IMG/VR virus record: IMGVR_UViG_3300033153_003869
Coordinates: 1-24,226 of that record
DNA length: 24,226 nt
Direction: 5' to 3' (one strand)
Source of the DNA: a virus
Part shown: piece after piece, positions 1 through 22,878 of the stretch
Layout: each line of letters starts with the position of its first letter
Numbering within the stretch: the first letter of the stretch is position 1
Program-made: the position numbers and the translations under genes
Notes under the pieces: generated by a model
Databases searched by the model: none
Seen by the model: the letters and a program-made list of their open reading frames with translations, nothing else
What the model was told of the DNA's origin: nothing

Positions 1-510
1 CGCCCCGTCGACGAGTCCGGTTAGGTCGATGGATTTTGACGCACTCGCCCCGACAAGAAACAGCCGAACGGTGTTTGCGGACGCTCGGTAGAGCACCCAA
101 CCAGTCCCAGTCCCACCAGACCAGTAGGTGCCCAATATGTAGGTAACCCGCGTCTCCGACCACTTGAGCGCAACCTCCAGGGCCATGTCCTCCGTGGTCA
201 CGTTTCCAATTGGGCCAGCCGATTGCAGGAACTTGCCGCTCTCGCCCTTTGCCGCGCGTTCCCCGAGGTGCGGCCCGTAGGCTGCGAGGTCTGGGCTGCT
301 CCCTGCCCCCGCCTCGGGCAGCACCGTCCCCGTCTGCCGACACGTCCACGTCTTGGCCGTGTCATCGAGACCGGTGCCGTCGAACCAGAACGTGGGCTCC
401 ACCGTCACCCCGGTGATAACCAGGTTCCTGTTGGCCCACAGGCGCTCCACCCCAGCTTTCATGGGCGAAGTGATAAGGCCTAGCCCCGCGTTCCGATACT
501 GGATGCTCAT
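1..510 (-). CDS. LamG/concanavalin-like tail or adhesin protein, N-terminal part (cut by window edge)
   Basis: An open frame of 170 codons runs from an ATG at 510 to the left edge with no stop, so the C-terminus is missing. The ATG overlaps the stop of the upstream gene as TGATG, and a GGTGAG ribosome-site match lies about 5 bases upstream. The protein starts MSIQYRNAGLGLITSP. Residues 40-100 contain Trp/Gly-rich strands and the motif AGAGSSPDLAAYGPHLG. From about residue 100 the strand pattern (SGKFLQSA, DMALEVALKW, YILGTYWSGG, WVLYRASANTVRLFLVG) resembles a LamG or concanavalin-type jelly roll, a fold common in phage receptor-binding and tail-surface proteins. The gene at 14350-15459 has a comparable C-terminal domain. 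The fold call is by eye. An adhesin or tail-surface role is inferred from fold and position. Confidence 0.7.
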   Translation of the reverse strand, partial: MSIQYRNAGLGLITSPMKAGVERLWANRNLVITGVTVEPTFWFDGTGLDDTAKTWTCRQTGTVLPEAGAGSSPDLAAYGPHLGERAAKGESGKFLQSAGPIGNVTTEDMALEVALKWSETRVTYILGTYWSGGTGTGWVLYRASANTVRLFLVGASASKSIDLTGLVDGA

Positions 511-1379
511 CAGCTCACCGAGATGTTAGCCGTGATTGTGTCGTCGGCCCCGCCGCTTGTGAAGTTGTAGAACAGCGCAATATGGCTATACGCCGTCTCC
601 AACTCCAGCTTGACTGCCCCAATCACAGAGACCGTCCATGTCGGAACAGGCAGCGCGTCTGCCTCCAGAAGCGATGCGTCGTTACCTACGAGCACCAGGA
701 TTTCCCCGACCGCATCAAACGCCCCCGCGCCCTTGGCCAAGAGGATATCGATGGCTACCAGGTTCCGGCCGCTCTTGTCCACGACAGTGCTCAGCCGGTC
801 TGCGTCGAGCACAACCGCAGCATACACTGCCGTCACTGCCGCATCCGCCTGGACCACCGGGGTAGACGCTGCCGCCAGGGCTTGTCCAAGGGCCGGGGCC
901 TTGGCGTCCAGGCTGGTGGTGTCGCCTGCGATGGTGTCAAGGTTTCCACCTGACTCCAGGGCGCCGCCACCACCGACCGCGGTGCTTGACTGAACCCCAC
1001 CGCCGCGCTTGACAACTGCCGTCACGAGCATGGTGTCGTCCGCGCCGCCGCTGGTGTAGTCGTAGAACACTTCGAGGTAGCGCATCGCGATGCCGGTCAG
1101 CAAAAGCGCCCCTTGCCTCGCGGCACCAGTCGCGATGGCGGTTTCGTAGGCGAGCAACTCTGTCGGCGTGTAGCTCGGGTCGTTTGTGACCCTGAACCGC
1201 AGCACGCCGACATGGTCAGGCGCCGCCACGCCCTGCGTCGTCTTGTACTCGATGCCAACAGTAGTGTTGTCGCCGAGATCAATGAGCTTGCTGCCCGCGT
1301 TCGCGTAGGTCAGGTCAGCCCCGAGAGTTGCGCCGTCGATGACGGTCCCACCGTTGGGAAGAGTCTGCTTCGCAGCCAT
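510..1379 (-). CDS. Phage structural protein with an internally duplicated domain
   Basis: 289 residues, with ATG at 1379 behind a strong AGGAGG ribosome site. The protein has two similar lobes joined by a linker. Lobe 1 (about residues 40-126) ends FYDYTSGGADDT; lobe 2 (about 186-289) ends FYNFTSGGADDT. The shared TSGGADDT and the preceding aromatic strand point to an internal duplication, also visible in DNA (539-575 against 1032-1068). The linker (about 140-185) is Gly/Ala-rich and includes LGQALAAASTPVVQAD, a pattern I associate with phage head or tail surface proteins. There is no catalytic motif, signal peptide or membrane segment. It sits between the enzyme cassette and the partial LamG-like gene, so a tail-surface or appendage role is likely but unproven. 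Confidence 0.75.
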   Translation of the reverse strand: MAAKQTLPNGGTVIDGATLGADLTYANAGSKLIDLGDNTTVGIEYKTTQGVAAPDHVGVLRFRVTNDPSYTPTELLAYETAIATGAARQGALLLTGIAMRYLEVFYDYTSGGADDTMLVTAVVKRGGGVQSSTAVGGGGALESGGNLDTIAGDTTSLDAKAPALGQALAAASTPVVQADAAVTAVYAAVVLDADRLSTVVDKSGRNLVAIDILLAKGAGAFDAVGEILVLVGNDASLLEADALPVPTWTVSVIGAVKLELETAYSHIALFYNFTSGGADDTITANISVS

Positions 1380-1380
1380 T

Positions 1381-2370
1381 TCAAATCCTCCTGGAGCAGC
1401 GATAGATTGCGCGCCCCTCTGTTGTTCCTACGTGGTGGACTTCATGCGTTGACCGGGCCAACTCCTGGAGCCATTCCTGATATTGGGCCTGGGGCCAAGC
1501 CGTCCCACCCCCATACTCCCGGCCCGGCACGTCCCCGTCAGTGATGAGCACCTTGCACCGGTCCAGCAGCCGCCGGAGCTTCTCGCCCACACCGTCGCGG
1601 TCGCCCCCCGTGTGGAATCCATGGAGCACCGACAGGCACACGATGACGTCCCACCCGAATCCACCCTTCAGGACCGGGTCCCATTCGCGCGTGCAGGAGT
1701 AGCTGACGGTGGTCCTGAACACGGTGTTCAGGTACTCCGCGACGGCAACCACTCGAGGGTCCAGGTCGATGCCAAACACCCTCCAGCCGCGCCGCGCAAA
1801 CTCACGGCAGAACCGGCCGGTACAGCTCCCAATCTCCAGAACTCCGGTGCCCGTCCGTGCCGCCGCTTCAATCCCGATGTCAGCCAGTGCCTTGAATACG
1901 AGGTCGATTCGATCTGGGGAGCGTGACACCTCCCAGCAGTCAAAGTAGGGGTGCTCGATCTCCTGGTAGAGCTTCTGCGGCTTACCCTGATAGATGCCAG
2001 CGAGGCTATCCACCATCTGCTGCCACAGCGGGGAGACCGACGTCAACGCAACGCGACCGAAGGCAGCCCCGTCGTGGGCCAGCCGCGCTGCCCGGTGGTG
2101 CCCGTCCAGTAGCTCGAACTCGCCCTCGCAGTTGAGCACGCATGGCATGGGCTCGGTGCTGGGAGGACCAGACTGCAGTTCGCGGAGGCGGGCGATAGCG
2201 TCCCTCATCTGCTCAGGGGTCTTGCCCATGGACAGCAGCAAGTCAGCGTACCGCCCGGTCAGTCCGTCCTCGCCACGGGCGAACGCCTCGTAGAGCCCCC
2301 GGTGCGTCGTCAGCTTGCACACCTGACCAGCCCCCTGGGCGACTATCCACATGAGCGGAGACAGCAGCAT
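1381..2370 (-). CDS. ParB-like domain fused to a SAM-dependent methyltransferase
   Basis: About 329 residues. An ATG at 2370 overlaps the upstream stop as TGATG; a GTG at 2373 is an equally possible start. The N-terminal part (about residues 15-110) resembles a ParB/sulfiredoxin-like fold, with the signature FELLDGHHRAARLA near residues 86-97. The C-terminal part (about 150-329) is a class I methyltransferase: motif I VLEIGSCTGRF at about 177-187, the SAM-ribose acidic loop FGIDLDP at about 199-205, and a motif IV-like strand DVIVCLSVLHGF. It lacks the DPPY-type motif of N6-adenine or N4-cytosine DNA methylases, so a small-molecule, sugar or protein substrate is more likely. It is the third gene of the cassette with the glycosyltransferase/radical SAM fusion and the zinc-ribbon methyltransferase. 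The role of the ParB-like part and the substrate are unknown. Confidence 0.8.
   Translation of the reverse strand: MLLSPLMWIVAQGAGQVCKLTTHRGLYEAFARGEDGLTGRYADLLLSMGKTPEQMRDAIARLRELQSGPPSTEPMPCVLNCEGEFELLDGHHRAARLAHDGAAFGRVALTSVSPLWQQMVDSLAGIYQGKPQKLYQEIEHPYFDCWEVSRSPDRIDLVFKALADIGIEAAARTGTGVLEIGSCTGRFCREFARRGWRVFGIDLDPRVVAVAEYLNTVFRTTVSYSCTREWDPVLKGGFGWDVIVCLSVLHGFHTGGDRDGVGEKLRRLLDRCKVLITDGDVPGREYGGGTAWPQAQYQEWLQELARSTHEVHHVGTTEGRAIYRCSRRI
1386..1392 (-). promoter_or_regulatory. Strong Shine-Dalgarno site for the gene starting at 1379
   Basis: The minus strand reads AGGAGGA, with its core 7 bases upstream of the ATG at 1379. It lies inside the last codons of the upstream methyltransferase gene (the AGG AGG codons for Arg-Arg). 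This gene therefore initiates on its own strong site, unlike the tightly overlapped genes upstream of it. Confidence 0.75.
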
Positions 2371-3188
2371 CACGGCTTCACCCCGTACATCTCCACCTGA
2401 CCACAGGTCTCGTGGGGTACGACCAGCGAGATGCCGAACCCGGCACCCTCAATGGCGTTGCGTAGCGCCTCGGTGGTGAAGTGGTGAATGTGGCTGCGCC
2501 CGAAATATCCAGCCTTGAGGTAGTTGTCGATGTCGGGCAACCCACTAGGGGCCGGCTTGCTCAGGTCGATGTCCGCCGTGTCGTGCCACTCATCGTAGAA
2601 GGTCTTGACCACGATGCCGCCACCAGGTCGCAGGACCTCAAAGGCGCGCGCAAGGTCGGCGCCGGGGGTCTCCGTGTGCTCGATCACGTCAAGGCTCACG
2701 ACGGCGTCGAGGGCGTCGGGGACCGTCGCGTCCAGGAAGGGGCTGTGCTCAACATGGCCATCGGCCAGCTCCGCAGCGCGTCGGCTCATGTCGCAGCCTG
2801 TCGCCTCGATGCCTCGAGCATGGGCAACCTTCAGGAACAGCCCCCAGGAGGCGCCAGCCTCGTAGAGCCTCGTGAGGGTTCCGACTGCCCGCTCCAGCTT
2901 GTCGAGGATGCCCTCGTAGACACCGCCCCGGATGCGTTCGTAGTACTCCCGCTTCTCCGGGGTGTTCATGAACGGTGAACCGTTCTCGACGTGGCGGTCG
3001 ATGTAGGCGTCGTATGCCGGCGCGTTGTAGAACGCAGCGGCGGCGAGGTGCATTAGCTTCGGCTGGTCATAGAAGCGGACGCCGCAGTCGGCGCACTCGA
3101 CCAGGTTCGCCCCGGTGTCAAGGACGTTGGTCCACCTCGTAGGGACAGTCTTGTCCCCGAATCCGCATGCTCCGCAGTGAGTCATCAT
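2370..3188 (-). CDS. Class I SAM methyltransferase with N-terminal zinc ribbon
   Basis: 272 residues from ATG 3188; the next codon is also ATG (3185). Both overlap the stop of the upstream fusion gene, giving translational coupling. The N-terminus carries two CxxC pairs, CGAC (C5, C8) and CADC (C32, C35), which predict a zinc ribbon. The methyltransferase core follows: motif I LYEAGASWGLFL (about 108-119), the acidic loop ATGCDMS (about 129-135), and SLDVIEHTETPGADLARAF (about 165-183) with VLRPGGGIVVK after it, the pattern of the Methyltransf_23 group. Zinc-binding N-termini with this core occur in NDP-sugar C-methyltransferases, but those are near 400 residues and have a further C-terminal domain that is absent here. 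A sugar or peptide methyl transfer in concert with the neighbouring glycosyltransferases is inference. Confidence 0.85.
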   Translation of the reverse strand: MMTHCGACGFGDKTVPTRWTNVLDTGANLVECADCGVRFYDQPKLMHLAAAAFYNAPAYDAYIDRHVENGSPFMNTPEKREYYERIRGGVYEGILDKLERAVGTLTRLYEAGASWGLFLKVAHARGIEATGCDMSRRAAELADGHVEHSPFLDATVPDALDAVVSLDVIEHTETPGADLARAFEVLRPGGGIVVKTFYDEWHDTADIDLSKPAPSGLPDIDNYLKAGYFGRSHIHHFTTEALRNAIEGAGFGISLVVPHETCGQVEMYGVKP

Positions 3189-5992
3189 TGCGACCACGCC
3201 CCGAAGCAGCGCGTGCACTCCTGCGGCAGTGGGCGGTCACGCAACATGGCGGCGCGCAACTCGGAGTACGTTTTCGAAATCCAGGTCACCTCGTGTAGCC
3301 GCCCAAAGAAGTCCGATGGTGGCAGCACGCGCCGGCAGGGGGTGATGAAGTTGGCCCCGTCGAGACCGAGGAAAACGAACGGGCTCTCGCAGGTCCCCGG
3401 GCAGTGCTCCAGGTCAATCGGGACAGGCCAGGAGGCGACGAGCTCGGAGCCCGGGAGGGTCTTGGCCTGCGCGATGACCTCGAGCGTCTCCTCGCTGTCG
3501 GTGGTCACGACCTCGCTCAGAAAGCCTGGGTCATCCGGGGGTCCGTGGGGCAGTAGGTTGTGGAGGTGGACGTGGTGCACGTCAAGGTCCAGTGCCAAGG
3601 CCAAGAACGCTTCGATGTCCTTCGCCGTGCTGTTCGTCACCACCGCCGACACCCCAGTGGGCAGCAGCGGGACGGACTCGGCGATGCCCTTCATCACCAG
3701 GTCCCAGGTGTCGACCTGAGTGATCGCCAGGTGTCGCTCAGCGTCCGGCGCGTTCAGACTGACCGTCACTTTCTTGCAGCCCCAGCCCGCAAGGTTCTGC
3801 GCCAGCTGTGACAGGCGCACGCCGTTGGTGATGATGGTCGAGTGGCAGCCGTGATTCTGGAGCACCCGGAACACGCCGTCGAGTTCACGGTGCAAGAGCG
3901 GCTCGCCGAAACCGGCGAGGCACACGGACCTGATGGTCGGGTAGGTGAAGAGTGCGCGGTCGACCTGCGCCGGTGAGATATCCGGCACCTGGTAGTCCTT
4001 CTGGTCATCCTCGACCTGTCTACACCAGGTGCAGCGGTGATTGCACCGGCTGGTCATGTAGAGGGTCAGCTCCTGGGGCCCGCCGGCCGACTTCCCAAGC
4101 AGCCAGTTGAGCCTGCGAACCACGGGGTCAGGCGCCGAGGCGTCCAGCTCCCGGTCTTCAACGACGGGCCTGGCCAGGCCTGCGACCATCCCCTCGTAGA
4201 TGGCGAGGTTCATAGGTGTCGGGTCGACGATCATCCGCTGCCTCATCTTCTCTGGGTATGGCGTCAGCCACCCCATGTACTCGGGGCGGGCGCGGAACTT
4301 CTCCATCAGCCGGCGCCATCGCTGGTGAGCCATCGCCGGGGTCTGGAGGCTGTAGTGTAGGCCAGCACACTCTTCTTCGGTGCGCGGTGCCGGGCCAAAC
4401 GTCGAGGTGAAGCCGTCGCTCTCCAGCGCCTCGAACTGGTCCTGGTCGCAGCTGACCGAGTCCGTGTAGGGGTAGCTGACCACCACGTCGGTCCTGTAGA
4501 TTTTCACCCCGGTGATGGCACGCTCCTCTGCGTCTCCCCACAGCCAGGCACAGTAGATAGCGCACTTCGCGCCGTGCTCCTGAATCTTTGTCAACAGGTC
4601 AGCGATGGCGGTCGGGCCAAGGAGCATGTCCGCGTCCACCTGGCAGAAGTACGGGGTCTCGGCGCGGAGGTGCATCTCCTGGAAAGCCTTCCACATCGGG
4701 GTGAACCCGGTTATCTCCTCCAGCTGGAACTCGACGCTCTGGCGTTCCAAGCGCTCTCGGCACTCCGCGGCTGATGGCTCGCCTGAAGAGATGAGGAACA
4801 CTGTCAGCAGGTCGGACAGGTCGGTCTTCGGCGCGGGCGTCATAAGCTCCTGAATCTCCTCGATGTAGCTCTCGACCATCCGATCCTCGCCAAGTTCCTC
4901 GACGGCGTAGGCGCGGGCCTGGGCGGCTATCAGGGCCCCCTCGTCAGGACGCTCAGAGAGCCGCGTGACGGCTGCGGCGATTGAGAAGGGTGTCGGGTCG
5001 ACCGCCACGCCCCTGATGCCGTCTGGGAACTGCTGGGGCAGGTCTCCGAGGTGTCTGGCGTACACCACGGGTACCCGCGCCAGCGCCGCCTCCACTGCCA
5101 CCAGCGGGTGCCCCTCAAACTCCGAGCAGAGCAGCAGGCAATCGAACTCCCGCAGCGCCATCTGCGCCGGCACCACCCCGCCGAGGTCGACCCGGTCCTG
5201 CAGGTTGAGCCGCCTGGCCAGGTCCATCAGCTTGGAGCGCTGGAAGCCCGCACCGTAGCAACGGAGCCTGACGTGTGGGGGGAGGTGCTCCAGCGCCTCG
5301 ATGGCCACCCCGAGGTTCTTCTCGGTGGCGTACCTGCCCAGGAAGCCGATGACGAACAGCTCGTCGTGCTCGACCTTTACCGTCCTCGCGGCGAACCTCT
5401 CGGGGTCCACCCCGTTCGGGATGACCTTGGCCACGAGCTCGGTGCGCTCCAGCACCCTGTCGGCCACCTGCTGGGAGACGGCGATGACCCGGTCAACCTT
5501 GTCACCCAGGGTCTCCAGCGGCTCAAGGACGTGCTCGCCCGGGCTGTGGGCAATCCAGATTGACCCCGGAATGTGGTCCTGGTGATCGAGGCTCTTGCCC
5601 CACCAGATGGTGGCCGCGCCTGTAAGTACTGGTCTTTCCGCCTCTGTGTAGCCGCAACCGGCCTCTTCCAGCCTCTCGAGCAGATCGGGCAACCGGGGGA
5701 AGGTGTACCCGGTGTTGACCACCCTGACCCGGTATCCCCTCCTGGCCAGCCCGCAGGCGAGGGCAACCCCGACCCGCTCAGCCCCGCCCAGAGACAGGCA
5801 GGTGCAAACGACGTCGATGGGGGCGCCTTCGGTGGTCGGGGAGAAGACGACATGCTCTGGATCAGCGCCCTGAAACGGCTCCTGTGGCGTCTCCCGTGGT
5901 GGTGCCGGCCTTTTGGGCTCCGGTAGATCCGATACCCGCAGGTGCCCGTCCCCGATGATGGGCGGCAGCACTTCCTGTTCGACCCACTGCAT
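3185..5992 (-). CDS. GT4 glycosyltransferase + GT2-like domain + radical SAM/SPASM-like fusion
   Basis: 935 residues in one open frame, with the ATG overlapping the upstream stop as TGATG. Residues 1-57 are a Pro-rich leader. Residues about 58-385 form a GT-B, GT4-type glycosyltransferase: LSLGGAERVGVALA near 66-79, IPNGVDPERF at 191-200, FLGRYATEKNLGVAIEAL near 217-234, and the E-x7-E pair E293/E301 within CSEFEGHPLVAVEA. Residues about 392-600 look like a GT2-like domain with a D-x-D (D453-A-D455 in QVDADMLLGP). Residues about 640-935 are a radical SAM enzyme: C650-x3-C654-x2-C657 (CNHRCTWC), the glycine-rich AGFGEPLL near 693-700, and C-terminal cysteines C864, C868, C886, C926 and C929 that suggest an auxiliary Fe-S (SPASM or twitch) cluster. 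The product and substrate are unknown. Position between an ejection-protein gene and tail genes suggests late expression and modification of a virion or surface component. Confidence 0.85.
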   Translation of the reverse strand: MQWVEQEVLPPIIGDGHLRVSDLPEPKRPAPPRETPQEPFQGADPEHVVFSPTTEGAPIDVVCTCLSLGGAERVGVALACGLARRGYRVRVVNTGYTFPRLPDLLERLEEAGCGYTEAERPVLTGAATIWWGKSLDHQDHIPGSIWIAHSPGEHVLEPLETLGDKVDRVIAVSQQVADRVLERTELVAKVIPNGVDPERFAARTVKVEHDELFVIGFLGRYATEKNLGVAIEALEHLPPHVRLRCYGAGFQRSKLMDLARRLNLQDRVDLGGVVPAQMALREFDCLLLCSEFEGHPLVAVEAALARVPVVYARHLGDLPQQFPDGIRGVAVDPTPFSIAAAVTRLSERPDEGALIAAQARAYAVEELGEDRMVESYIEEIQELMTPAPKTDLSDLLTVFLISSGEPSAAECRERLERQSVEFQLEEITGFTPMWKAFQEMHLRAETPYFCQVDADMLLGPTAIADLLTKIQEHGAKCAIYCAWLWGDAEERAITGVKIYRTDVVVSYPYTDSVSCDQDQFEALESDGFTSTFGPAPRTEEECAGLHYSLQTPAMAHQRWRRLMEKFRARPEYMGWLTPYPEKMRQRMIVDPTPMNLAIYEGMVAGLARPVVEDRELDASAPDPVVRRLNWLLGKSAGGPQELTLYMTSRCNHRCTWCRQVEDDQKDYQVPDISPAQVDRALFTYPTIRSVCLAGFGEPLLHRELDGVFRVLQNHGCHSTIITNGVRLSQLAQNLAGWGCKKVTVSLNAPDAERHLAITQVDTWDLVMKGIAESVPLLPTGVSAVVTNSTAKDIEAFLALALDLDVHHVHLHNLLPHGPPDDPGFLSEVVTTDSEETLEVIAQAKTLPGSELVASWPVPIDLEHCPGTCESPFVFLGLDGANFITPCRRVLPPSDFFGRLHEVTWISKTYSELRAAMLRDRPLPQECTRCFGAWSQ

Positions 5993-8004
5993 CAGCCCAC
6001 CCCCTCGGAGATGCGTTGGCTCATGGTTTCGCTGCTCGAGGCAATCTTGAACTTCTGGTCACGCTTCGGGGGCTCCTGCTTTTCGCGAGAAGCCGCGTGC
6101 ATCTCCTGGAACATGCGGATGGTCGCCGGGTCGTACATCAGCGGCGCCATCTTGCCGTCCCCCAGGAGCAGGGCAATCTGCTGGGCGTGGCTGCGTTCGA
6201 AGCGGTGCCCGTCGGCCTTGGCGTGCTCCACCTCGGCGCGGACGATGTCGCGCCACTGCTCCAGCGCCTCGGGGTAGACCGCCCCGAAGGCCTGCACCTG
6301 AACGTCGGCGAGCTTGCCGTCCTTGAACGCCTCGGCCACCGTGTCGGGGTCAAGGGCTGCACGGATGGCCCGCATGGGAGTCTGGGGCAGCTCGTCCTCC
6401 TTCTCGCTGCCAGTCGGCAGCCGGTCCTCTCGCGGGTCCACCCACTGCTGCAAGTAGCCCGTCAGGCGACCGAGCGAGGCCGTGACCTCCTGTCGGACGT
6501 TCTGCGGAACCACCGTTGGGTAGTGCAGCGCGAGCGCTTCCTCCTGCTCCTCGGGGGTGGTGTCGACCACCGCCCTGACCACCGTGGTCAACTCCTTGTC
6601 GGACATCTCCGCGATGGCCCCGACCTTCGCCCCGGGGGCAATCTTATTGACCAACGCCGAGACCAGGGGGATGCCGCCCGACCTGGTCCCGCGGCCAAGA
6701 GTGGCCACCCACGAGCCCGCACGGCGACCGATGGGGGCGAGTGCAGCCGCGAACATCTTGGTGCCACGGAGGCTCAGTGTGTTCCCGAGGAACCCACCCG
6801 GCAACGCGCCCATTGCAGAGCCGTTGAGCCCATACGACACCGCCGCCGCGCCTATCTCGGACAGCATCCCGGCCCGGCGCAACTGCGTCTTGGAGCCGAG
6901 GTTCGCGAGCTGAGCCTCCAGCTTCGCAATTTTGGTCTGGTCGGCAGGGGTGATGGTGGGCTCTTTGGTGAGCGTGGCCTGCTTGTTCCGAAGCTTCCCT
7001 AGCCGGTCCTGCGCCCTGTCGAGTCGGAGCTCTGCGCGGTCCAGTGCCTCACTTCGTCCCCAGCGGCTTCCTGCTGGAGCTGCTCGTCGAGGAGGTAGAC
7101 GCCGCGGGCCATGAACGCCAGGCCCCGACCTGGCTTTCGCGGTAGCGGACAGCCCCTGTCGGGCGACGTTTATCTCATCGTAGATGATCGCAACGTCCGC
7201 CTCGCCCTTGGCGATGTCGTCTTTTAGGCTCCCGGCCTTCCCTTTCTGTGCCGCCGCACGCTCCTCGGGGGCCCACTTCGCCGCCTTCAGATCGGCCTCC
7301 AGCGCCCTCTTCTGCGCGAGCCCGGCCTCCAACTGCTTCGCCATCTTGGCGCTGGCCACCTGGCGCATCTTGCGGCCCACCGCCATGACGCCCCGCGCGC
7401 CCGCCCCAATGAGCCCCCCGGTCAAGCCGCCAGTCACGGTGTGCTCGAGGAAGTTCTGCGCGGCGTCACCGGGTGTCATCTCCGGGGTGAGGGCGATGTC
7501 GCTCACGCTCTGCCCTGCCCCGATAGCCCCGCCAGCCATCAGGTCCTCTGCCGCCCCGCCGGCCACACGCGCGCCGAGGCCAGCGCCGAGGCCTCCCCTG
7601 ACCCCCCTGCCGAGCGCTGCAGCTCCCCGGCCCGCCAGCTGCAGCGGCATGCCCGGCAGGAACGCGCTGCCGATGGTGCCGCCGATCTCTGACACCCCCG
7701 ACGTGATGGGGTGAGCTTCGCCGAGCGCTGTCAGCATCTCAGGGTTTACGCCCATCCCCTTGTAGAGCACGTCGGAGAGCCCGAGCGTCAGTCCCCTGCC
7801 TGCCCCAGCCACGCCAGCGGCAATCTGGGCCCCAGGGTCCTGGAGGCTCTCGACCAGCGCCGCCCGGCCGGATTGCTCCCCTCCGAGCGGCACGAGCCCG
7901 CCGGCCAGCGCCTGCGGAATCTTGTCCCGCGGGATGCTGACCCGCTCCCCTGTGTCGGGGTCGAGGAAGTAGGCGGTGTCGCCCTTGACGAAGACCTTGG
8001 CCAT
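5992..8004 (-). CDS. Large internal virion / DNA-ejection-type protein, with a suspected out-of-frame segment
   Basis: 670 residues, with the ATG overlapping the upstream stop as TGATG. The N-terminal 15 residues (FVKGDTAYFLDPDTGERV) look like a small beta hairpin. Long Gly/Ala-rich amphipathic stretches follow (about 60-75, 100-165, 190-215 and again 385-450), the membrane-active composition seen in podovirus ejection proteins. Residues about 220-285 and 320-370 are charged and predicted coiled coil. Residues 294-318 are different: a Pro/Arg-rich stretch (VHGPRRLPPRRAAPAGSRWG) typical of wrong-frame GC-rich DNA. In the neighbouring frame the same bases read GLAFMARG followed by VYLLDEQLQQEAAGDE, and 27 bases match the tail gene exactly. 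No enzyme motif is seen. The role is inferred from composition, size and position. Confidence 0.75.
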   Translation of the reverse strand: MAKVFVKGDTAYFLDPDTGERVSIPRDKIPQALAGGLVPLGGEQSGRAALVESLQDPGAQIAAGVAGAGRGLTLGLSDVLYKGMGVNPEMLTALGEAHPITSGVSEIGGTIGSAFLPGMPLQLAGRGAAALGRGVRGGLGAGLGARVAGGAAEDLMAGGAIGAGQSVSDIALTPEMTPGDAAQNFLEHTVTGGLTGGLIGAGARGVMAVGRKMRQVASAKMAKQLEAGLAQKRALEADLKAAKWAPEERAAAQKGKAGSLKDDIAKGEADVAIIYDEINVARQGLSATAKARSGPGVHGPRRLPPRRAAPAGSRWGRSEALDRAELRLDRAQDRLGKLRNKQATLTKEPTITPADQTKIAKLEAQLANLGSKTQLRRAGMLSEIGAAAVSYGLNGSAMGALPGGFLGNTLSLRGTKMFAAALAPIGRRAGSWVATLGRGTRSGGIPLVSALVNKIAPGAKVGAIAEMSDKELTTVVRAVVDTTPEEQEEALALHYPTVVPQNVRQEVTASLGRLTGYLQQWVDPREDRLPTGSEKEDELPQTPMRAIRAALDPDTVAEAFKDGKLADVQVQAFGAVYPEALEQWRDIVRAEVEHAKADGHRFERSHAQQIALLLGDGKMAPLMYDPATIRMFQEMHAASREKQEPPKRDQKFKIASSSETMSQRISEGVG
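7073..7099. repeat. 27-base exact repeat, copy 1 (inside the ejection-protein gene)
   Basis: Identical base for base to 12034-12060 and in the same orientation. Similarity continues more weakly on both sides, over roughly 7040-7128 against 11993-12088. In this copy the frame matching the other copy is not the frame of the host gene. Confidence 0.9.
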
Positions 8005-9692
8005 CAGTAGCGGCTCGGTTTCTTGCCCATGGCGCTGCGCTTCGCCTTGTGAGCTGCGATGCGCTGCTGCGCGGCGAGTGTCCTGCGCTCAAAGAACGTG
8101 TCGTCCCCCATCATCGCCGCCTGGGTTGCCCTGGCCCGCTTGTAGGCGTTGATTTCCCCCTGGTCGACGGCGTGGAGGAGCCCTTTGATTCTCCGAATGA
8201 TGGCATCTCGAGGCATGAGGCGCCCCGCCTTGATCACGTCGAAGACCTCCATGTCCCTGTCGCTGATGCGCCCCACGTCACCGGCGAGGGCTCGCTGGAT
8301 GGGGGCCATCATCCGAATTGCGATGCTCAGGTCCTGTCCCTGGGCGCCGGGGAGGTCCTTCAGTGAGGTGGGAAACGTGCCCTTTATGCCGTCCAGAATC
8401 TCCAGGGCACGCTCACCCCCAGCCCTCGCGTTAGAGAGCACCTCGTAGGTCTCCCCGAGCTTCTTGGCGACGGACTTGTCCATCTTCCCGCCGCCGCGCC
8501 GGTAGAGCTTGGAGGCGATGACCGGGGCACTCCACTTGTCGGTGCCGGACTTCGTCATCGTCTTCTTGCCGGCGGCTCGCACCACCTCCTGGTGGTAGAA
8601 GTTCTGGTAGCCATCGCGGACCTGCGCGGCCAGGGCGAGCCACTTTGCCTTTGCCTTGGCATCCCTCGACCCCTCCCCGATGGCCTGCAGCTTCAGCTCG
8701 ACCGCCTTGCCGTGGAACATGATGCTCTGACGGGCACGCTCCCCGATGCTGCCTCGCTCCTGGAGCGAATACTGAAGGTTCTCCTTCTTGCCCTTGATCT
8801 GCCGGCCCACCTTGGCCATGTCAGCCCGCTGGGCCTCGATGTCTCGGCGGATGGCGTTGTTGACGATTTCGGCCGCGAAGTTCTTTGTGCCAGACAGCGC
8901 GGCGCCTGCTGCCCCCAGCGCCATCCCGAGGGTGGCTGCGATTTTTTTGACCGTCCCCGCGCCTCCGCGCCAGATGCGGTCGGGGTCTTCCTTCATGGCG
9001 TCCCGCTTCTGCTCGAGTTCGGCCATGCGCTGGCGCTCGCCGGCAACGAACTCGTCCATCTTCTGCTGGCGCTCGCCGGCCTCGCGCATCCGCTCCGTGA
9101 GGTCCGAAACGCCCTCCAGGGCCACGACTCTCTTTTGGGCGCCCTCCACACCCTCCGCAAGTGCGCCAATCTCCCCCGCGTCGACCCTGTCCTGCGCCAA
9201 TTGCTGCTTCTTCTCCAGCACGTCCGTCTGCAGTGGGGCCCCCGTGGTCACCTGCTCCTGTTGCGTGCGCGAGAAGGGGCTCCACTTTCCAGGGCTCACC
9301 ACCCCGGACGGGGCCGGCGGTGGGGGCTGCTTCTGGGCCCTGAGATAGTCAAGCTCCGGGTCACCCGGAAGCGCCGCCGGGGAGATGTCGGGGGTCTCGA
9401 CCATATGCTGTGTGCCCGCGCGCTCGTGAGGCATGGCCCCGGGGGCAGGAGGAAGCTGCATCCCTTCTCGTACTGGACCCCCCTCCCCCGCGGCCAGCGC
9501 TGCGTCTATGGGTCCGAGAGCGACAGGGAGCTTTAGCGTTGGGTCTGGGAGGGTCATTGGCGACTGGGGGATAGTGAGCCCTAGCGGTAGAGGGTCTCCC
9601 GGCATCGGCTGGTTCAGCCCCTGGCCGTAGGGGAGTCCCGTCATCTGCCGTCTCATCAGGTCCCAGAAGTTGGGCTCCTTTGGTGCAACCAT
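8004..9692 (-). CDS. Internal virion / ejection-type protein
   Basis: 562 residues, starting 3 bases after the upstream TAG. Residues 1-150 are Pro/Gly-rich and probably disordered. About 156-236 is a strongly charged coiled coil (KKQQLAQDRVDAGEIGALAE, ERQRMAELEQKRDAMKED). A short hydrophobic Gly/Ala segment, IAATLGMALGAAGAALSG (251-268), is followed by FAAEIVNNAIRRDIEAQ, and then long helical, basic sequence to the C-terminus (AAHKAKRSAMGKKPSRY). Coiled coil plus one small membrane-active patch, and its place between a tail protein and another Gly/Ala-rich protein, fit a protein ejected with the DNA. It overlaps the next gene as TGATG. There is no catalytic signature. A lytic or scaffold role is not excluded. 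Confidence 0.7.
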   Translation of the reverse strand: MVAPKEPNFWDLMRRQMTGLPYGQGLNQPMPGDPLPLGLTIPQSPMTLPDPTLKLPVALGPIDAALAAGEGGPVREGMQLPPAPGAMPHERAGTQHMVETPDISPAALPGDPELDYLRAQKQPPPPAPSGVVSPGKWSPFSRTQQEQVTTGAPLQTDVLEKKQQLAQDRVDAGEIGALAEGVEGAQKRVVALEGVSDLTERMREAGERQQKMDEFVAGERQRMAELEQKRDAMKEDPDRIWRGGAGTVKKIAATLGMALGAAGAALSGTKNFAAEIVNNAIRRDIEAQRADMAKVGRQIKGKKENLQYSLQERGSIGERARQSIMFHGKAVELKLQAIGEGSRDAKAKAKWLALAAQVRDGYQNFYHQEVVRAAGKKTMTKSGTDKWSAPVIASKLYRRGGGKMDKSVAKKLGETYEVLSNARAGGERALEILDGIKGTFPTSLKDLPGAQGQDLSIAIRMMAPIQRALAGDVGRISDRDMEVFDVIKAGRLMPRDAIIRRIKGLLHAVDQGEINAYKRARATQAAMMGDDTFFERRTLAAQQRIAAHKAKRSAMGKKPSRY

Positions 9693-9695
9693 CTT

Positions 9696-11333
9696 CTACC
9701 TCCCGAGCAGGGAGCCGAGGCCCACCTGCGGCTGCTGCTGGGCGCCCGAAGGCAACTGCGGGTTCATCATCAGGGCCTGCGCCTGCGCTGCTTGCGACGG
9801 GCTTGCTAGGCCCATGCGCTCCATGATGTTCAGCCGGCGAAGCTCGTCGGCCTGCGAGTAGTCGGGCACCCCACCCTGCTGGCTGGCCACCTGGCGAGCC
9901 TTCTCGGGCTCCAGTTGATACTCCTCATCGGTCCCCATGATGCCGGGGTCCTGGCGGCGCAGTTGAACCCGCTCCTCTGGTCCAGGGGCGGCAGTCCGCT
10001 GGGGGTTGGAGTCAAACTCGTACATGTCCTGGAACCCCCGGAGAGTGCCCTGTGCTGGGGTCATCGGGGCGACGTCCATATCTATGGCCTTGCCCCCCTG
10101 GCCCTGTTGCTTCTGATGCAGGTGCACGAGCGAGGCGAGGAGGAGCGGGACCGCCTTCTGGTAGTCCACCATCTTGCCGTTGGGACCGTCGATCACCAAC
10201 TGCCGGCCCAGTGCCGACTTCTCGAGGTCCTGGGCCATGACCCCCGTGTGCTGCCCGGGGGCAGCGCCCTGCGCGTTCGGGTCCTTGTACTGGTAGGTCG
10301 ACGGGGAGAGCATCGAGAGGAACTCGTCGATGCCCCCGCTCGCGCCCTGGATGTTCTTCTTGGCGTTGACGTCGGACATGGATGCCGCGACGGTCCCCAC
10401 CGCCTGGAGACCTGCGCCGATGTACGGCTGCAGCTTCTGCCACAACTCCGGGTCGTTCATCTGGATCTGGGCCATCAGGCCGCGGTTGAACTGCAGGTCT
10501 TGCATATTCATGCCCATGTACTTCTGCTTCAGCTCCTGCTCTGCAAGGAAACGGTTGGTGTCCATGCCGTACCGGTCGAGGTCCTGCTGGCCGCGGGCCT
10601 GGTCCTGGCCGCGGATGCCGCCGATCATCCCGACGTTCTGGAAGTCCTGGGTCCGCACGCCGCCGACTCCCGAGAGGTATGCGTCCTGCGCGTCCTGTAT
10701 CTCCTGGGCCCCTGCCGTCATGGCATCCCCGGCAAGCTGCTGCGTGGCCCCTGCCGCCTGCTGCTGGGCGTTGCGGTAGGCCATCGGGTTGTAGCCGCCG
10801 GGCGCCGAGCGAGCGAGCGACTGGCCCTGCGCGGCAAGCCGGCTAGCCATCTGCTTGGCGACCATCTGGGAGATGAGGTCGTCGCCTCCGGCCCGACGCT
10901 TGAGCATGTCGAGCGCGTCGACCTGGCGGTCGCGCATCTGGGCCGGCTGGCCCATGGCGTTGATTTGCCACTGGCGCATGGCATCGCCCATCTGGGTCGA
11001 CTTCTGCCCGTAGTCCTTCCAGCCTGGGCGTCCCTCCCCAAGACCCTTGTAGTGCTGGTCGAGCCACCACTCCATCGAGGCAGGCTGCCCCCCCTGTCCG
11101 AGCCCATACTTCGCGTTGGCCCTCTTCTCGCCCTCGGTCCAGGTGGACTGGTCATCCGGGTCATAGCTCCCGGGGCCGGTTGGCGTGGGAGAGTTCGATG
11201 GCGTGATGTAGGGCTTCCCGGTCGCAGGGTCTATCCCCGCCTTGCTCTGGTCGCTCCAGTGCTGCCGCTCGTCGGCCGGCATGGGCGTGTTGCCGTGGGT
11301 TGCGCTTCCGCCCGTCATTTTCGGTAGGGCCAT
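9696..11333 (-). CDS. Virion protein with an internal S74 (intramolecular chaperone/protease) signature
   Basis: 545 residues, with the ATG overlapping the upstream stop as TGATG. Residues 1-310 are Gln/Met/Ala-rich and mostly helical, unlike a beta-stranded tail spike. Residues about 319-408 carry the S74 signature: S320-D-V-N-A-K325 (the Ser and Lys five apart match the self-cleavage dyad of the endosialidase family), then YQYK, HTGVMAQDLEK (about 362-372) and KMVDYQKAVPLLLASL (387-402). In known proteins this domain sits at the C-terminus of trimeric fibres and is cut off after folding. Here about 140 Gln/Pro-rich residues follow it. Cleavage before S320 would release a 319-residue mature part. 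The gene lies between the tail/stabilisation protein and two ejection-type proteins. Whether it is a fibre, a plug or an internal protein cannot be settled here. Confidence 0.75.
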   Translation of the reverse strand: MALPKMTGGSATHGNTPMPADERQHWSDQSKAGIDPATGKPYITPSNSPTPTGPGSYDPDDQSTWTEGEKRANAKYGLGQGGQPASMEWWLDQHYKGLGEGRPGWKDYGQKSTQMGDAMRQWQINAMGQPAQMRDRQVDALDMLKRRAGGDDLISQMVAKQMASRLAAQGQSLARSAPGGYNPMAYRNAQQQAAGATQQLAGDAMTAGAQEIQDAQDAYLSGVGGVRTQDFQNVGMIGGIRGQDQARGQQDLDRYGMDTNRFLAEQELKQKYMGMNMQDLQFNRGLMAQIQMNDPELWQKLQPYIGAGLQAVGTVAASMSDVNAKKNIQGASGGIDEFLSMLSPSTYQYKDPNAQGAAPGQHTGVMAQDLEKSALGRQLVIDGPNGKMVDYQKAVPLLLASLVHLHQKQQGQGGKAIDMDVAPMTPAQGTLRGFQDMYEFDSNPQRTAAPGPEERVQLRRQDPGIMGTDEEYQLEPEKARQVASQQGGVPDYSQADELRRLNIMERMGLASPSQAAQAQALMMNPQLPSGAQQQPQVGLGSLLGR

Positions 11334-14305
11334 CAGAACCTCCTGGCCGAGCCGATGTCCTTGCGGGCACGTCCCGGTCGTTGCGTGATTTCGAATCCGA
11401 TGGTGCTGAGCGAGTAGCTCTCCACCGGCACCGTCGCCCCCCCGTCATGGCTCTCGTCGATGACTTCCAGCATCATCGCCCGGCACTTCTGTCTGCTCAC
11501 GCCGGCCTCAAGCACCATCGCCTTGTGCGTGTAGCCTGCGGCCAGCCCGGCGCCTTCGTGCTCGTCGCTGTCGAACTGATACCCCAAGGTGTCGAGTGCG
11601 AACGTCTGGTCGTCGACCACGACCGGGTCCAGGTCGTAGAACGTCTTGAGCCGCAGGTCGCAGTCAGCCAGGTTGTGCCCGCCCAGCTGCAGCCGGGAGA
11701 TGCGGAGGCTCGGGGCGAACGTGAACCACCCGGTGCGAATCTTTAGCGCGGCCAGCGTCGTGCCCGCGTCCTTGAAGGTCGTCAAGTCCATAACGTAGAC
11801 GGTGCTGTCGGATTGCCCCTTCCAGTAGAGACTGCTGTCGTAGCTCGTGGCGCAGTCGGTCGCCCGGAAGTTGAGCCAGGTCACCCACACCCCGTGCAGG
11901 TAGTCATAGACCAGCGCTGGCACGCTCGCTGTCGACGACATCCAGACGGCGATGTGCTGCGACGGGACAATCTCCGAGCAGACGTAGGTGTACTGGTCGG
12001 TCCAGAGCTGGACCTCGTTTCCGATGGGCTTCGGCTGGAGCTGCTCGTCGAGGAGGTAGATGCCGTCGCGAGACATGAAGGCCAAGCCCTGAGGCAAGCG
12101 CACGATCGTCTTCTGGTCGCTGCACCCGACGGCCGCGGAGATGAGCTGTGGGGCCTTGTAGTTGGTGTCGCCACCGTTGGGCCCGTACCCGTCGCCGTAG
12201 GTCGCGTAAATGCGGTCCTTCTTGAAGATGATGAGCCGGTCCTGGTAGCTCTCCAGGGCGGTGATGCGCCCACCGTCGGGGGAGCAAACCACCACGAGCC
12301 CCTCGTTGTGCTGCACTCCAGTGTTCGGCAGGAACCCCTTACTGTAGTAAATCCTCGAGTCTTCGAACTCTCGATGGGCGTAGACGTGGCGCTGCTGATG
12401 CACGCAACTGACGCGGTGGCCTGCGGCCGCGATGTCCTGCACCTCGGCCTGGCTGTAGAGCATCTCCTCGGCCACCAGGTCGGCGTCGGTCATGCTGTCG
12501 GTGAGCACCACGGCGACAGCCGTCGTGTCGTTGGCGATGTCCCCTACGCGGTAGTAGTAGGCCCCGGCAGCCTCGGTGCGGTAAACCGCGATTCGAACGC
12601 CACTCTTTGCGCTGCAGGTCAGCGTCGGGAGGGTGATGTCGCACTTCTCGTCAGCCAACGTCACGCTGACCGAATCGCTCGGGGCTGACTGGTGTCGGCG
12701 CCCCTGCGCGTCGTACCACTCGTAGACCGCGATGTAACCGAAGTCCCCGGTGAGCCCGGTGGCAGCGCCGACAGCAGGAGAGATGCCCGTCGGGTACCAG
12801 GGGAAGCCCATTTCGACCACGTCCTTGCCATCGAACTCCTGGGGGCTCGCTGCGGGGATGAGCAGGCTATGCGCCAACTCCCGGCACTTGAGAGAGGTCA
12901 CGGCCAGGTTGCAGTCGAGCACCGAGCAGCCGTAGGTGTCCTCGCTGGACCGGTGGATGCAAGCCACCCTCCACAGGTCGTCTGACACCTGGCAGACAGA
13001 AGAGAGGCACCGGCCGTACCACGTACCGCTCACAGCCCCGTTCGGATGCGCGTAGCCGTGGAGGGCACGACCGAAGAGGTTGCCGTTGCTCTTGAGGATG
13101 AGATAGGTGCGCTGCGTCATGCCGGCGATATCCGAGATGACGCTCATGTAGTGGGCGTTGTTGCCGTCGATGGACGGCTTGCTGTCGAGCATCACCCCCA
13201 TCTGCAGCAAGTTGTCAGAGCCTGCCGTGCACCCGCCCGAAGCGGGACATTCGAAGTCGTTCGACCGCACCCATGCCGAGTGCTCCCCGGCTGCCGCTGT
13301 CGAGTCCACAACGGTGAAGTAAATCGCGCCGGTCGTGTCACTGTCCGCCGCGCCCGAGACCGAGAAGATGAGTTCGTTGGCGCCGATGGTGTAGACGACG
13401 TCGGTGGCGTTCACCAGCGTTGCGGTGTTGCTGTAGCCCGCCGCAGAGAGGTCAGAGCCCACCTCCGTCCAGCAAACCACGCCGATGCCAGTCCTCTGCT
13501 TGTAACAGGCTGTCCTGCGGCAATTGGTCATGACCAGCACCGCGGTATGCTCGGTGTCGTTGCCCTCGATGGTGATGACCCGCAGGTCGCCGGTCGCGCT
13601 GACGTCGTCGGCCCTGCCGGTAATCATCATGTCAGCGCCGCCAAGAGCGCAGACGTCGATGGGGTAGGACGTGTGCATCCATGCGGTGCCGCTGTTCAGG
13701 GCTACGGCGGCAGCGATGGCGCCCGTGTCTTCGTTGATGGTCCGGCGGTAGACCACCCCCGTGGCCAGAACGTAAATGACGAGAAGCCGCGTACCCGTGT
13801 AGACCACCCGAATGCCGCCCTCGCCGCCCGCTGCGACGGTGGCGGTGGCAGCCCGCTCGCCGGACCCCAGAGAGTAGCTGACGATCTTGTAGGAGTAGGT
13901 CGCCGCCTGAGGGTCGTACTCCTGATAGACCACTGCACGGATAGACGCGGACTCCGCGACGTGCGCGTAGTTGCACTGGTTGGCAGTCTCAAGGCGCGTC
14001 AAGCCGATGTCGAGCAGGTTCACCGTCGACAGGCTGTCGAAGCCGCCGGTCTTGTAGGTGCTGCCGTTGTGGACCTTGAGGCTGGTGTCGTCGATCAATA
14101 CCGGCTTGTCCTGGAACGACGTGACGAACTGCTCGGTGTGCGAGCCGGTGAGTGCCGCCGAACCGTAGCGCTTCCGAATCTCGGCCTCGCGGTTGATGCG
14201 GGCGTTCTCGAGGAGCAGCAGCCCCTGCTCGGTGACGTGCGGGCTCTTGCCGCTGCTCACTCCAGCGACGAGCTTGACGGTGACGACCTGCTTCTGCGAC
14301 GGCAT
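11333..14305 (-). CDS. Tail hub / DNA-stabilisation-type protein
   Basis: 990 residues from ATG 14305. I chose this over an in-frame upstream ATG (14380) because it has a strong GGAGGT ribosome site 8 bases away, and the upstream extension (TWLFRIFLWFGRWLS) would overlap the previous gene. The sequence is beta-rich throughout. The start GLLLLENARINREAEIRKRYG (first 20 residues of that motif at about 28-47) and the later run RLIIFKKDRIYATYGDG then GLAFMSRDGIYLLDEQLQ (from residue 740) resemble podovirus tail-tubular or packaged-DNA stabilisation proteins with a propeller-like repeat structure. It would sit below the portal/adaptor and form the tail tube or plug. It overlaps the next gene as TGATG. 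The family call is by pattern only. Confidence 0.75.
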   Translation of the reverse strand: MPSQKQVVTVKLVAGVSSGKSPHVTEQGLLLLENARINREAEIRKRYGSAALTGSHTEQFVTSFQDKPVLIDDTSLKVHNGSTYKTGGFDSLSTVNLLDIGLTRLETANQCNYAHVAESASIRAVVYQEYDPQAATYSYKIVSYSLGSGERAATATVAAGGEGGIRVVYTGTRLLVIYVLATGVVYRRTINEDTGAIAAAVALNSGTAWMHTSYPIDVCALGGADMMITGRADDVSATGDLRVITIEGNDTEHTAVLVMTNCRRTACYKQRTGIGVVCWTEVGSDLSAAGYSNTATLVNATDVVYTIGANELIFSVSGAADSDTTGAIYFTVVDSTAAAGEHSAWVRSNDFECPASGGCTAGSDNLLQMGVMLDSKPSIDGNNAHYMSVISDIAGMTQRTYLILKSNGNLFGRALHGYAHPNGAVSGTWYGRCLSSVCQVSDDLWRVACIHRSSEDTYGCSVLDCNLAVTSLKCRELAHSLLIPAASPQEFDGKDVVEMGFPWYPTGISPAVGAATGLTGDFGYIAVYEWYDAQGRRHQSAPSDSVSVTLADEKCDITLPTLTCSAKSGVRIAVYRTEAAGAYYYRVGDIANDTTAVAVVLTDSMTDADLVAEEMLYSQAEVQDIAAAGHRVSCVHQQRHVYAHREFEDSRIYYSKGFLPNTGVQHNEGLVVVCSPDGGRITALESYQDRLIIFKKDRIYATYGDGYGPNGGDTNYKAPQLISAAVGCSDQKTIVRLPQGLAFMSRDGIYLLDEQLQPKPIGNEVQLWTDQYTYVCSEIVPSQHIAVWMSSTASVPALVYDYLHGVWVTWLNFRATDCATSYDSSLYWKGQSDSTVYVMDLTTFKDAGTTLAALKIRTGWFTFAPSLRISRLQLGGHNLADCDLRLKTFYDLDPVVVDDQTFALDTLGYQFDSDEHEGAGLAAGYTHKAMVLEAGVSRQKCRAMMLEVIDESHDGGATVPVESYSLSTIGFEITQRPGRARKDIGSARRF
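12034..12060. repeat. 27-base exact repeat, copy 2 (inside the tail protein gene)
   Basis: Identical to 7073-7099. Here the minus-strand reading is in frame and encodes part of IYLLDEQLQ, within a stretch that looks native to this protein family. This is therefore the likelier source copy. Confidence 0.9.
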
Positions 14306-14311
14306 GCTAAG

Positions 14312-14320
14312 CCACCTCCC
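14312..14320 (-). promoter_or_regulatory. Shine-Dalgarno site that decides the start at 14305
   Basis: The minus strand reads GGGAGGTGG, with GGAGGT 8 bases before ATG 14305. The 44-base gap to the upstream gene (14306-14349) holds this site and nothing else I can identify. Confidence 0.75.
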
Positions 14321-14349
14321 AAACCAAAGAAAGATACGAAACAGCCATG

Positions 14350-15459
14350 TCACGCAGCCCTCAGCTGTGCGTCGACCCACTGGAGGTGGGGGAGAATCAT
14401 GGGCGCGTTCGAGTAGCGGAGACCGTAAATTTCCCCAAAGTAGTCAGAGCCAGAGTCATAGCCGCCTACCCAAATCCGGCTGTTTGCGCCCCCTGTCGGA
14501 GCATTGGCTGTGCTTCCGGAGTCCATCGAGACCGCGTCAAAAAAGATCTCGTAGTCCTTCCCATTGGCGGCGCGGGTGACCGCGCAATAGATCAAGTCAA
14601 GCTGCGGGAGCGTTACGGCGCTCACCCAAGGGTCATTGAACCCCCCTCCATGCTCGCTAAGCACGCCTACGTTACCAATGTTCTTCAACAGTTGGATGAG
14701 TACCTGCCAGTTGTCGGCCTCTGCCGGGTCCGAAACAACGCCAACGCCGAAGAACGCATCATCGGCCGATGTTGCCCCCGACCACGCCAGCAATGCCTCG
14801 ACGGTAAAAGCGCCCGCATTTACAAGACCAGCGTCAACTGCCGACCTAAACCACCTGTCATACCGTAGGCTCCAGCCGAGCAGCCCGTTGCGGCGCGTGT
14901 GGGTCTTGGCCGCACCGACGGCAGACAAGTCGTGACTGTTCCCTGTGCGATCGACCTGGTCGTCGGCGGTGGCGTCTGGCTGGTACCTGGCAATGTAGTC
15001 CCCCGTGAACCCCGGGGGCTTGTCGCCGCTCAGATAGTTGACGATGGGTGTCCCGGCCCCGCCCCCAACGCCCCCAGTGTGCCCCCTCAAAACTGCCCAC
15101 TGGCTGGGCGCAATGCACACCACGGTCAGCATGTCCCACACGCCGCCGACAGACTTGGACGAGCCCCCGTTGACGGTGTCTCCCACCTGGGCAAGCAGTT
15201 TGATGACGGCCCCCCCGCTCGTCGGGTTGACCACCGTGAACGACTGCCCCACCACGCCGGGCTTCCCGTAGGGGATGAACACGGTTCGGGCAGCCCCACC
15301 GTCCAGACGGTAGAACTTGCCGACGGCGGCGACGATGTCCTCTCGGAGGACGGACTCTGTCGGGACGCCGAACGTCTGCCGAGACCAGTCCTGCTGGTCG
15401 CGCATCCCGGTAACGGCCTCCTGCGGGAGGCCCGGCAGGTTCGGCAGGTCCCTTTTCAC
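14350..15459 (-). CDS. Virion protein with C-terminal LamG-like domain
   Basis: 369 residues from a GTG at 15459, adjacent to the upstream TGA and with GGGAG 5 bases upstream. Residues 1-115 form a beta-rich N-terminal part (VGKFYRLDGGAARTVFIPYG, then VGQSFTVVNPTSGGAVIKLL). A Gly-rich hinge lies near 128-140. Residues about 150-369 look like a LamG/concanavalin jelly roll: AYIARYQPDA-like opening, NAGAFTVEALLAWSG, LIYCAVTRAANGKDYEIFFD and the closing SRIWVGGYDSGSDYFGEIYG, which is the usual last-strand pattern of these domains. It sits between the head-tail adaptor and the tail hub, so a neck appendage or tail-surface sugar-binding protein is plausible. Confidence 0.75.
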   Translation of the reverse strand: MKRDLPNLPGLPQEAVTGMRDQQDWSRQTFGVPTESVLREDIVAAVGKFYRLDGGAARTVFIPYGKPGVVGQSFTVVNPTSGGAVIKLLAQVGDTVNGGSSKSVGGVWDMLTVVCIAPSQWAVLRGHTGGVGGGAGTPIVNYLSGDKPPGFTGDYIARYQPDATADDQVDRTGNSHDLSAVGAAKTHTRRNGLLGWSLRYDRWFRSAVDAGLVNAGAFTVEALLAWSGATSADDAFFGVGVVSDPAEADNWQVLIQLLKNIGNVGVLSEHGGGFNDPWVSAVTLPQLDLIYCAVTRAANGKDYEIFFDAVSMDSGSTANAPTGGANSRIWVGGYDSGSDYFGEIYGLRYSNAPMILPHLQWVDAQLRAA

Positions 15460-16137: not shown

Positions 16138-16140
16138 CGG

Positions 16141-22656: not shown

Positions 22657-22878
22657 TCATGATGCCGTCCTCTGCTGCAGGTCCCACAGCTCCCGAGACG
22701 TCGGAGCCGGGCCTGGGTCGAACAGCGTATCTTTCCCGGCCGCGAACCGCTGATGGCACTGCTTGCACAGGACCATGGACCCGTAGACCAGGAACCGGCC
22801 GGGCTTGCGGCACTCCCTGCTCTGCACTGGCAGCCAGCGGTCGCAGCGACCAACCGTGCTCGGGTGGTGCCGGCTCAT
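22657..22878 (-). CDS. Small Cys-rich protein, possible zinc binder
   Basis: 73 residues from ATG 22878, overlapping the stop of the GNAT gene as ATGA. Cysteines at about 12, 23, 38 and 41, with H42 in LCKQCHQRF, could form one zinc site. It is too short for a full HNH nuclease, and I do not see the usual HNH histidine/asparagine set. The position just ahead of the terminase is where many phages encode HNH or other small packaging helpers, so a helper role is possible. Confidence 0.6.
   Translation of the reverse strand: MSRHHPSTVGRCDRWLPVQSRECRKPGRFLVYGSMVLCKQCHQRFAAGKDTLFDPGPAPTSRELWDLQQRTAS

Follow-up and report, generated by a model that had tools for sequence, protein, structure and literature searches.

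What does a gene that joins two glycosyltransferases and a radical S-adenosylmethionine (SAM) enzyme in one chain do among the virion genes of a phage? The question is raised by a 24,226-base linear fragment of an uncultured virus (IMG/VR record IMGVR_UViG_3300033153_003869; the whole of this stretch is called the window below), the minus strand of which carries all late genes. A first-pass annotation, made from the letters of the window, had noticed a single 935-codon frame at 3185-5992 with the motifs of three enzymes, and had suggested that the chain handles one substrate in sequence. We found that this frame is a genuine three-domain fusion and that it recurs in unrelated phages. The gene and its parts are as follows.

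3185..5992, minus strand: GT4 / GT-A glycosyltransferase / radical SAM fusion with a SPASM-like tail; 935 amino acids, ATG start (open reading frame, Pfam and model; architecture matched in loci L038 and L029)
4838..5821, minus strand: domain 1, residues 58-385, GT4-type (GT-B) glycosyltransferase (PF00534, 1.8e-16; PF13692, 4.6e-16)
5090..5116, minus strand: GT4 E-x7-E motif, E293 and E301, both Glu conserved in L038 and L029
4178..4822, minus strand: domain 2, residues 391-605, GT-A-fold glycosyltransferase of a new subfamily (alignment, model and Foldseek)
4628..4636, minus strand: DAD, the DxD metal/nucleotide-sugar site, residues 453-455, followed by an invariant Met456 (DxDM in 12/12 members)
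3188..4087, minus strand: domain 3 (residues 636-935), a radical SAM enzyme for which one auxiliary cluster is predicted (PF04055, 6.6e-16)
4022..4045, minus strand: CxxxCxxC for the SAM-binding iron-sulfur cluster, C650-C654-C657 (11/11 radical SAM relatives)
3206..3391, minus strand: conserved C-terminal Cys 868, 886, 926 and 929, SPASM/twitch-like (11/11 relatives)

Three enzymes in one chain

The single frame was borne out, on a strand that the annotation had left unstated, and the positions it gave for the motifs (E293/E301, DAD at 453-455, CxxxCxxC at 650-657) were exact. Third-position guanine-cytosine content is 0.79-0.93 along the whole 3185-5992 frame, in agreement with one coding gene. 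The protein has no membrane segment (maximum Kyte-Doolittle value 1.47).

The outer two domains, read earlier as a GT4 and a radical SAM enzyme, both scored far over their Pfam cut-offs. For domain 1, the Glycos_transf_1 score was 60.6 bits against a cut-off of 26.4, and TarM was a match among PDB sequences (1.4e-7). In the predicted fold most of residues 3-208 had a predicted local distance difference test (pLDDT) value <50, the alignment being thin; BshA, TarM and HepE were still among the fold matches.

The middle domain is without a Pfam match of its own in the window protein, and had no match among named phages. Its family was found via a degenerate pattern around the DAD motif, with 23 sequences aligned, and because a profile of this family searched against PDB sequences gave nothing significant, a fold search was needed. 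The AlphaFold model of domain 2 (pLDDT 92.9, predicted template-modelling score 0.88) was matched by Foldseek to the fucosyltransferase WrtF (2e-7) and to CgT, SpsA, TarP and K4CP. The core residues described for GT-A enzymes are the DxD motif, a G-loop glycine and a C-terminal histidine (PMC7185993); in domain 2 the DxD, the G-loop Gly495 and the C-terminal His546 are invariant across the fused family. Also invariant is an acidic residue (D/E) at 516, which starts the helix 515-525 and is not part of a strict xED motif. Alignment, model, fold search and core residues together identify domain 2 as a GT-A-fold glycosyltransferase. The earlier label of "GT2-like" held for the fold, through the 23-sequence alignment and the model, but not for the Pfam family: Glycos_transf_2 (GT2) had no match in the window, and the proteins of L051 and L032 scored 18.8 and 16.2 bits against a cut-off of 23.3. 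The domain is thus a GT-A enzyme, yet GT2 membership is not established.

Domain 3 scored 59.4 bits with PF04055 against a cut-off of 29.5, and its profile matched MoaA (4e-19), BlsE (2e-16) and BtrN (1e-12) in the PDB. The SPASM model PF13186 had no match in the window, while L051, L032 and L036 scored 32.3, 22.6 and 22.1 bits against a cut-off of 21.5. The five C-terminal cysteines noticed earlier lie at C864, C868, C886, C926 and C929; C864 is not conserved, but the other four are, which is sufficient for one auxiliary cluster. The relatives of the domain mix sugar-acting (BlsE, BtrN, DesII) with peptide-acting (SkfB, SuiB) enzymes. Membership of the MoaA, W-maturase and ScmF families was rejected, as the scores were far under the cut-offs.

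Recurrence in other phages

A link between the GT-A and radical SAM domains is present in 11 loci, the window among them: ten encode a fusion, and one (L036) has overlapping genes. This is in keeping with the suggestion of sequential action on one substrate. The architecture had been called unusual; it is, but a neighbourhood survey found it in L038 and L029, and the GT-A/radical SAM pair in eight further loci, so the fusion is not unique to the window. L038 (IMG/VR 3300022821_000059, record G010) is distantly related to the window phage, with a collinear TerL-portal-major capsid-tail-module order (identity to the window of 42% in the terminase, 39% in the portal, 28-31% in the capsid and 29% in the tail protein). 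There, a homologue of the window gene 5992-8004 is followed by a 1196-amino-acid GT4-GT4-GT-A-radical SAM gene (TAATG overlap) and then, in the equivalent place, by a 39% identical homologue of the methyltransferase gene 2370..3188. L029, whose portal and capsid are unrelated to those of the window, has an 861-amino-acid GT4-like/GT-A/radical SAM gene immediately after the capsid gene. Seven loci have the GT-A/radical SAM fusion but lack a GT4 part in it: L030-L035 and L051, the last being a phage contig that was binned with a bacterium. In L036 the same GT-A/radical SAM set is split into two genes. Across ~545 shared residues the pair is 31-42% identical in unrelated phages.

That the pairing is no search artefact follows from the seeds, which lay within domain 2 only, and yet radical SAM was present in 9/19 of the viral loci with the GT-A family. 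A scan of 84,980 prokaryote species genomes returned the L051 phage contig as its sole fused match; the scan was seed-limited, and there is therefore at least this one. When the fusion, capsid and terminase proteins were each searched singly against viral contigs, no matches were obtained, and a pattern search for the radical SAM motif was likewise empty. A radical SAM match in Stenotrophomonas TS-12 was set aside as an ordinary MoaA within a nitrate-reductase/molybdenum-cofactor cluster, and the cyanophage S-2L, found through its terminase, has no gene order in common with the window. Literature searches, which covered open-licence papers, found no published description of this fusion.

More distant radical SAM-like genes (E ~1e-4) were observed near GT-A genes at L047:9643-10785 and L048:9652-10515, and one of them overlaps its GT-A gene. 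The GT-A/radical SAM link may therefore reach past the fused family.

Genomic setting

The fusion gene is flanked by the following late genes.

20893-22401, minus strand: terminase (phrog_2, 1.8e-16)
19020-20900, minus strand: portal (phrog_156)
16564-17793, minus strand: capsid (phrog_14242)
15460-16137, minus strand: SU10-type adaptor
11333-14380, minus strand: tail or internal protein
9696-11333, minus strand: protein with S74 chaperone
8004-9692, minus strand: gene between the S74 protein gene and 5992-8004
5992-8004, minus strand: late gene upstream of the fusion gene, putative internal/ejection protein; TGATG-coupled, N-terminus 30% identical to the L038 homologue in the same place
2370..3188, minus strand: methyltransferase with a Zn-ribbon-like N-terminus (PF13489, 5.2e-12); ATGA overlap with the fusion gene
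1381..2373, minus strand: two-domain partner, with an N-terminal ParB/SerK-like DGHHR domain and then a WbdD-type methyltransferase (PF08242, 1.7e-8)
510..1379, minus strand: downstream gene, possible tail/appendage protein by position only

Stop-start overlaps (TGATG, ATGA, GTGA) chain 5992-8004, the fusion gene and both methyltransferase genes, and from 510 to 16515 no intergenic gap is >14 nt. The order past the fusion gene is two methyltransferase genes and then two genes without assignment; PHROG and Pfam searches of 510..1379 were without a match. The start of 2370..3188 is probably the ATG at 3188 rather than the GTG at 3218. The TGATG coupling of the fusion gene to an ejection-protein gene had been pointed out before; the overlap is real, but the "ejection protein" label comes from position only, as the top PHROG match of 5992-8004, a virion RNA polymerase, has little strength (E=0.013). 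The place of the module in a virion operon is common to the window and the related phage L038.

Three other observations were made in the window. The gene 14350-15459 (minus strand), situated between the genes for the adaptor and for the large tail/internal protein, has a Laminin-G/concanavalin-like lectin domain (PF13385, 1.5e-4, below the cut-off) and no counterpart at the equivalent place in L038. Upstream of the terminase, 22875-23513 (minus strand) is GNAT acetyltransferase-like (PF00583, 21.8 bits, barely over the cut-off). The S74 chaperone-of-endosialidase domain of 9696-11333 (minus strand) sits mid-protein (320-372) and not at the C-terminus.

Neighbouring glycan enzymes

Every module is accompanied by further glycosyltransferases: GT4 genes adjoin it in L030, L033 and L051, and other glycosyltransferases are present in L031, L032, L034 and L035. 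Extra genes in L051 encode a sulfotransferase and a nicotinamide adenine dinucleotide (NAD)-dependent sugar epimerase, and L038 has a sulfotransferase-like gene (weak, 0.0029). A 1662-amino-acid multi-glycosyltransferase gene (L032:3005-7993, in a 203-kb phage) was observed to overlap the GT-A/radical SAM gene.

Homologues of the two-domain gene 1381-2373 adjoin the modules in L029, L031, L032, L033 and L036, and are also found near GT-A genes without radical SAM (L040/L046). The profile of this gene matches WbdD (7e-16), and the match includes the YQxI-HP element before the methyltransferase. His132 of WbdD, which is reported to be essential for methylation of the capping phosphate on the O9a glycan (PMC3482155), has its equivalent in H251, conserved in seven of the eight members including that of the window. 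Invariant in the family (A7) are H93, R94, H141, P142 and F144. Pfam recognised only the methyltransferase part of 1381-2373, after which there is no eukaryotic-type kinase domain. The gene product may represent a novel type of enzyme for the phospho-methyl capping of glycans.

Proposed function and its alternatives

We hypothesize, with moderate confidence, that the fusion is a soluble late multi-enzyme chain which builds a short modified glycan that is then methylated and capped, with a virion protein as the likeliest acceptor. The 935-residue chain, being soluble and expressed late, would work in the cytoplasm of the infected cell. Its GT4 and GT-A domains would perform one sugar transfer each from nucleotide donors, after which the radical SAM domain might alter a sugar of the glycan or its carrier residue (e.g., by epimerisation, oxidation, or dehydration). 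The two overlapping downstream genes would finish the product, one by methylating it and the other by adding a methyl-phosphate-like cap as WbdD does, and the likeliest acceptor would be a virion protein from the same operon.

That the product is a glycan is well supported by the extra glycosyltransferases, methyltransferases, sulfotransferases, sugar-nucleotide epimerase, and WbdD-like capping enzyme around the module. The first-pass annotation had offered a glycan or a glycosylated peptide; the glycan stands, but the gene block has no room for a precursor-peptide gene, which speaks against a free glycosylated peptide. Gene position makes a virion target likely, as the gene coupling is conserved in the two related phages and the module lies one to four genes after the major capsid gene in L029, L033, L034 and L036, although this is suggestive only.

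Several points weigh against the proposal of a capped glycan on the virion. The region past the capsid gene is a frequent insertion site for phage cargo genes; L029, L033 and L034 have a common, distantly related capsid type (24-29%); and no structural neighbour was seen in L032 and L035. For these reasons the gene position is suggestive of a virion target and no more, and a distance of <8 kb from structural genes is itself weak evidence, since such genes occupy much of a phage genome. The relatives of domain 3 are generic (MoaA, PqqE, SkfB, SuiB, BlsE), so the substrate of the radical step is not readable from them, and the GT4 portion of the full-length model is of poor confidence. In the partner 1381-2373, the equivalent of WbdD His133 (residue 252) is Gly in the window and basic in the other seven members. 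The nearest kinases to its N-terminal domain (LLDGHHR) are SbnI/SerK, at an E value of 0.03 that is under significance; a kinase activity of the DGHHR domain is a lead and not a result.

If the chain were not a biological fusion at all, it would be an assembly join or a read-through of separate genes, a risk that had been raised with the first annotation. Separate genes do exist (GT-A and radical SAM are split in L036, and GT4 is separate in L030 and L051), but the same fused gene on two other contigs, L038 and L029, refutes the join, and the coding signature is continuous; we give this reading practically no weight. Nor does it seem at all probable that the module is ordinary phage cargo, in which unrelated metabolic enzymes were fused by chance and have no common pathway. 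Multi-glycosyltransferase fusions are indeed common in uncultured phages (L032, 1662 amino acids; L042, 1211 amino acids), but the conservation of the GT-A/radical SAM pair in unrelated phages, and the recurrence of its partners, speak for a shared pathway.

A stronger competitor, though still an unlikely one, is modification of the host surface, in which the chain acts on the infected cell and not on the virion, altering the lipopolysaccharide or capsule, e.g., to block superinfection. GT4 enzymes and WbdD operate in surface-polysaccharide pathways, and PHROGs class phage glycosyltransferases mostly as moron/host-takeover. However, the chain has no membrane segment and is probably soluble, no lipid-carrier or flippase gene was recognised in the window, and the late virion-operon place and its start-stop overlap are conserved in two divergent phages; so late a change would be of little use to a lytic phage, though release could benefit. 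We regard as less probable again that the radical step takes place on an amino-acid residue in a virion protein (as an epimerisation, a crosslink, or a methylation) and that the glycosyltransferases then glycosylate this protein. The peptide-modifying SkfB, SuiB and PqqE are among the SPASM-type PDB relatives, but the sugar-acting BlsE, BtrN and DesII are matched too, and there is no precursor peptide gene, the widest gap from 510 to 16515 being at most 48 nt. A precursor peptide of the ribosomally synthesised and post-translationally modified type is ruled out, as the gene block leaves no space for one.

The proposal of a virion glycan can be extended, though only tentatively, to a portable assembly line in unrelated tailed phages, in which the glycosyltransferase-fused radical SAM enzyme would edit the glycan or its attachment residue, a WbdD-like enzyme would cap it, and the product would be carried on the virion. 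If this is true, such glycan editing and virion coat have not previously been described in phages.

Comparison with known systems

The domains have recognisable but remote counterparts. WrtF, SpsA, TarP and K4CP have fold and core motifs in common with domain 2, but are 9-14% identical to it, and domain 2 is without placement in a CAZy family; its GT-A subfamily is a candidate new family. The closest solved relatives of domain 3 (MoaA, BlsE, BtrN, DesII, SkfB) have the CxxxCxxC core and several have C-terminal cluster cysteines, but none is fused to a glycosyltransferase, and domain 3 is far under all NCBIfam cut-offs. A glycosyltransferase-radical SAM fusion would place radical chemistry on glycans in a new setting, and might serve as a tool for making unusual sugars. 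WbdD of E. coli O9a is the methyl-phosphate capping enzyme of an O-antigen, and its methyltransferase domain is homologous to that of 1381-2373, with the YQxI-HP element common to both. The other domain differs: in WbdD a eukaryotic-type kinase follows the methyltransferase, whereas in 1381-2373 a ParB/SerK-like domain, a putative kinase, precedes it.

Glycosylation of bacterial-virus virions is barely explored, and the module offers a concrete, recurring gene set with a predicted chemistry of sugar transfer, radical editing, and methyl-phosphate capping. In the mycobacteriophages Che8 and Rita, phage glycosyltransferases are thought to decorate glycan-bearing major capsid proteins (PMC11256854). 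The Foldseek matches of domain 2 include the glycosyltransferase Q855A2 of Che8, although neither a radical SAM enzyme nor a multi-enzyme chain has been described for these phages. The closest functional precedent is A064R of chlorovirus PBCV-1, in which two glycosyltransferases and a methyltransferase are joined into one soluble protein that makes the capsid glycan; a further methyltransferase, A061L, is separate (PMC9614988). Its third domain is a methyltransferase where the window has radical SAM, with no homology shown, and it acts on the capsid N-glycan of an algal virus. Like A064R, however, the phage fusion is a probably soluble viral protein that combines several sugar transferase domains with a modifying domain, and it has a separate methyltransferase as its helper.

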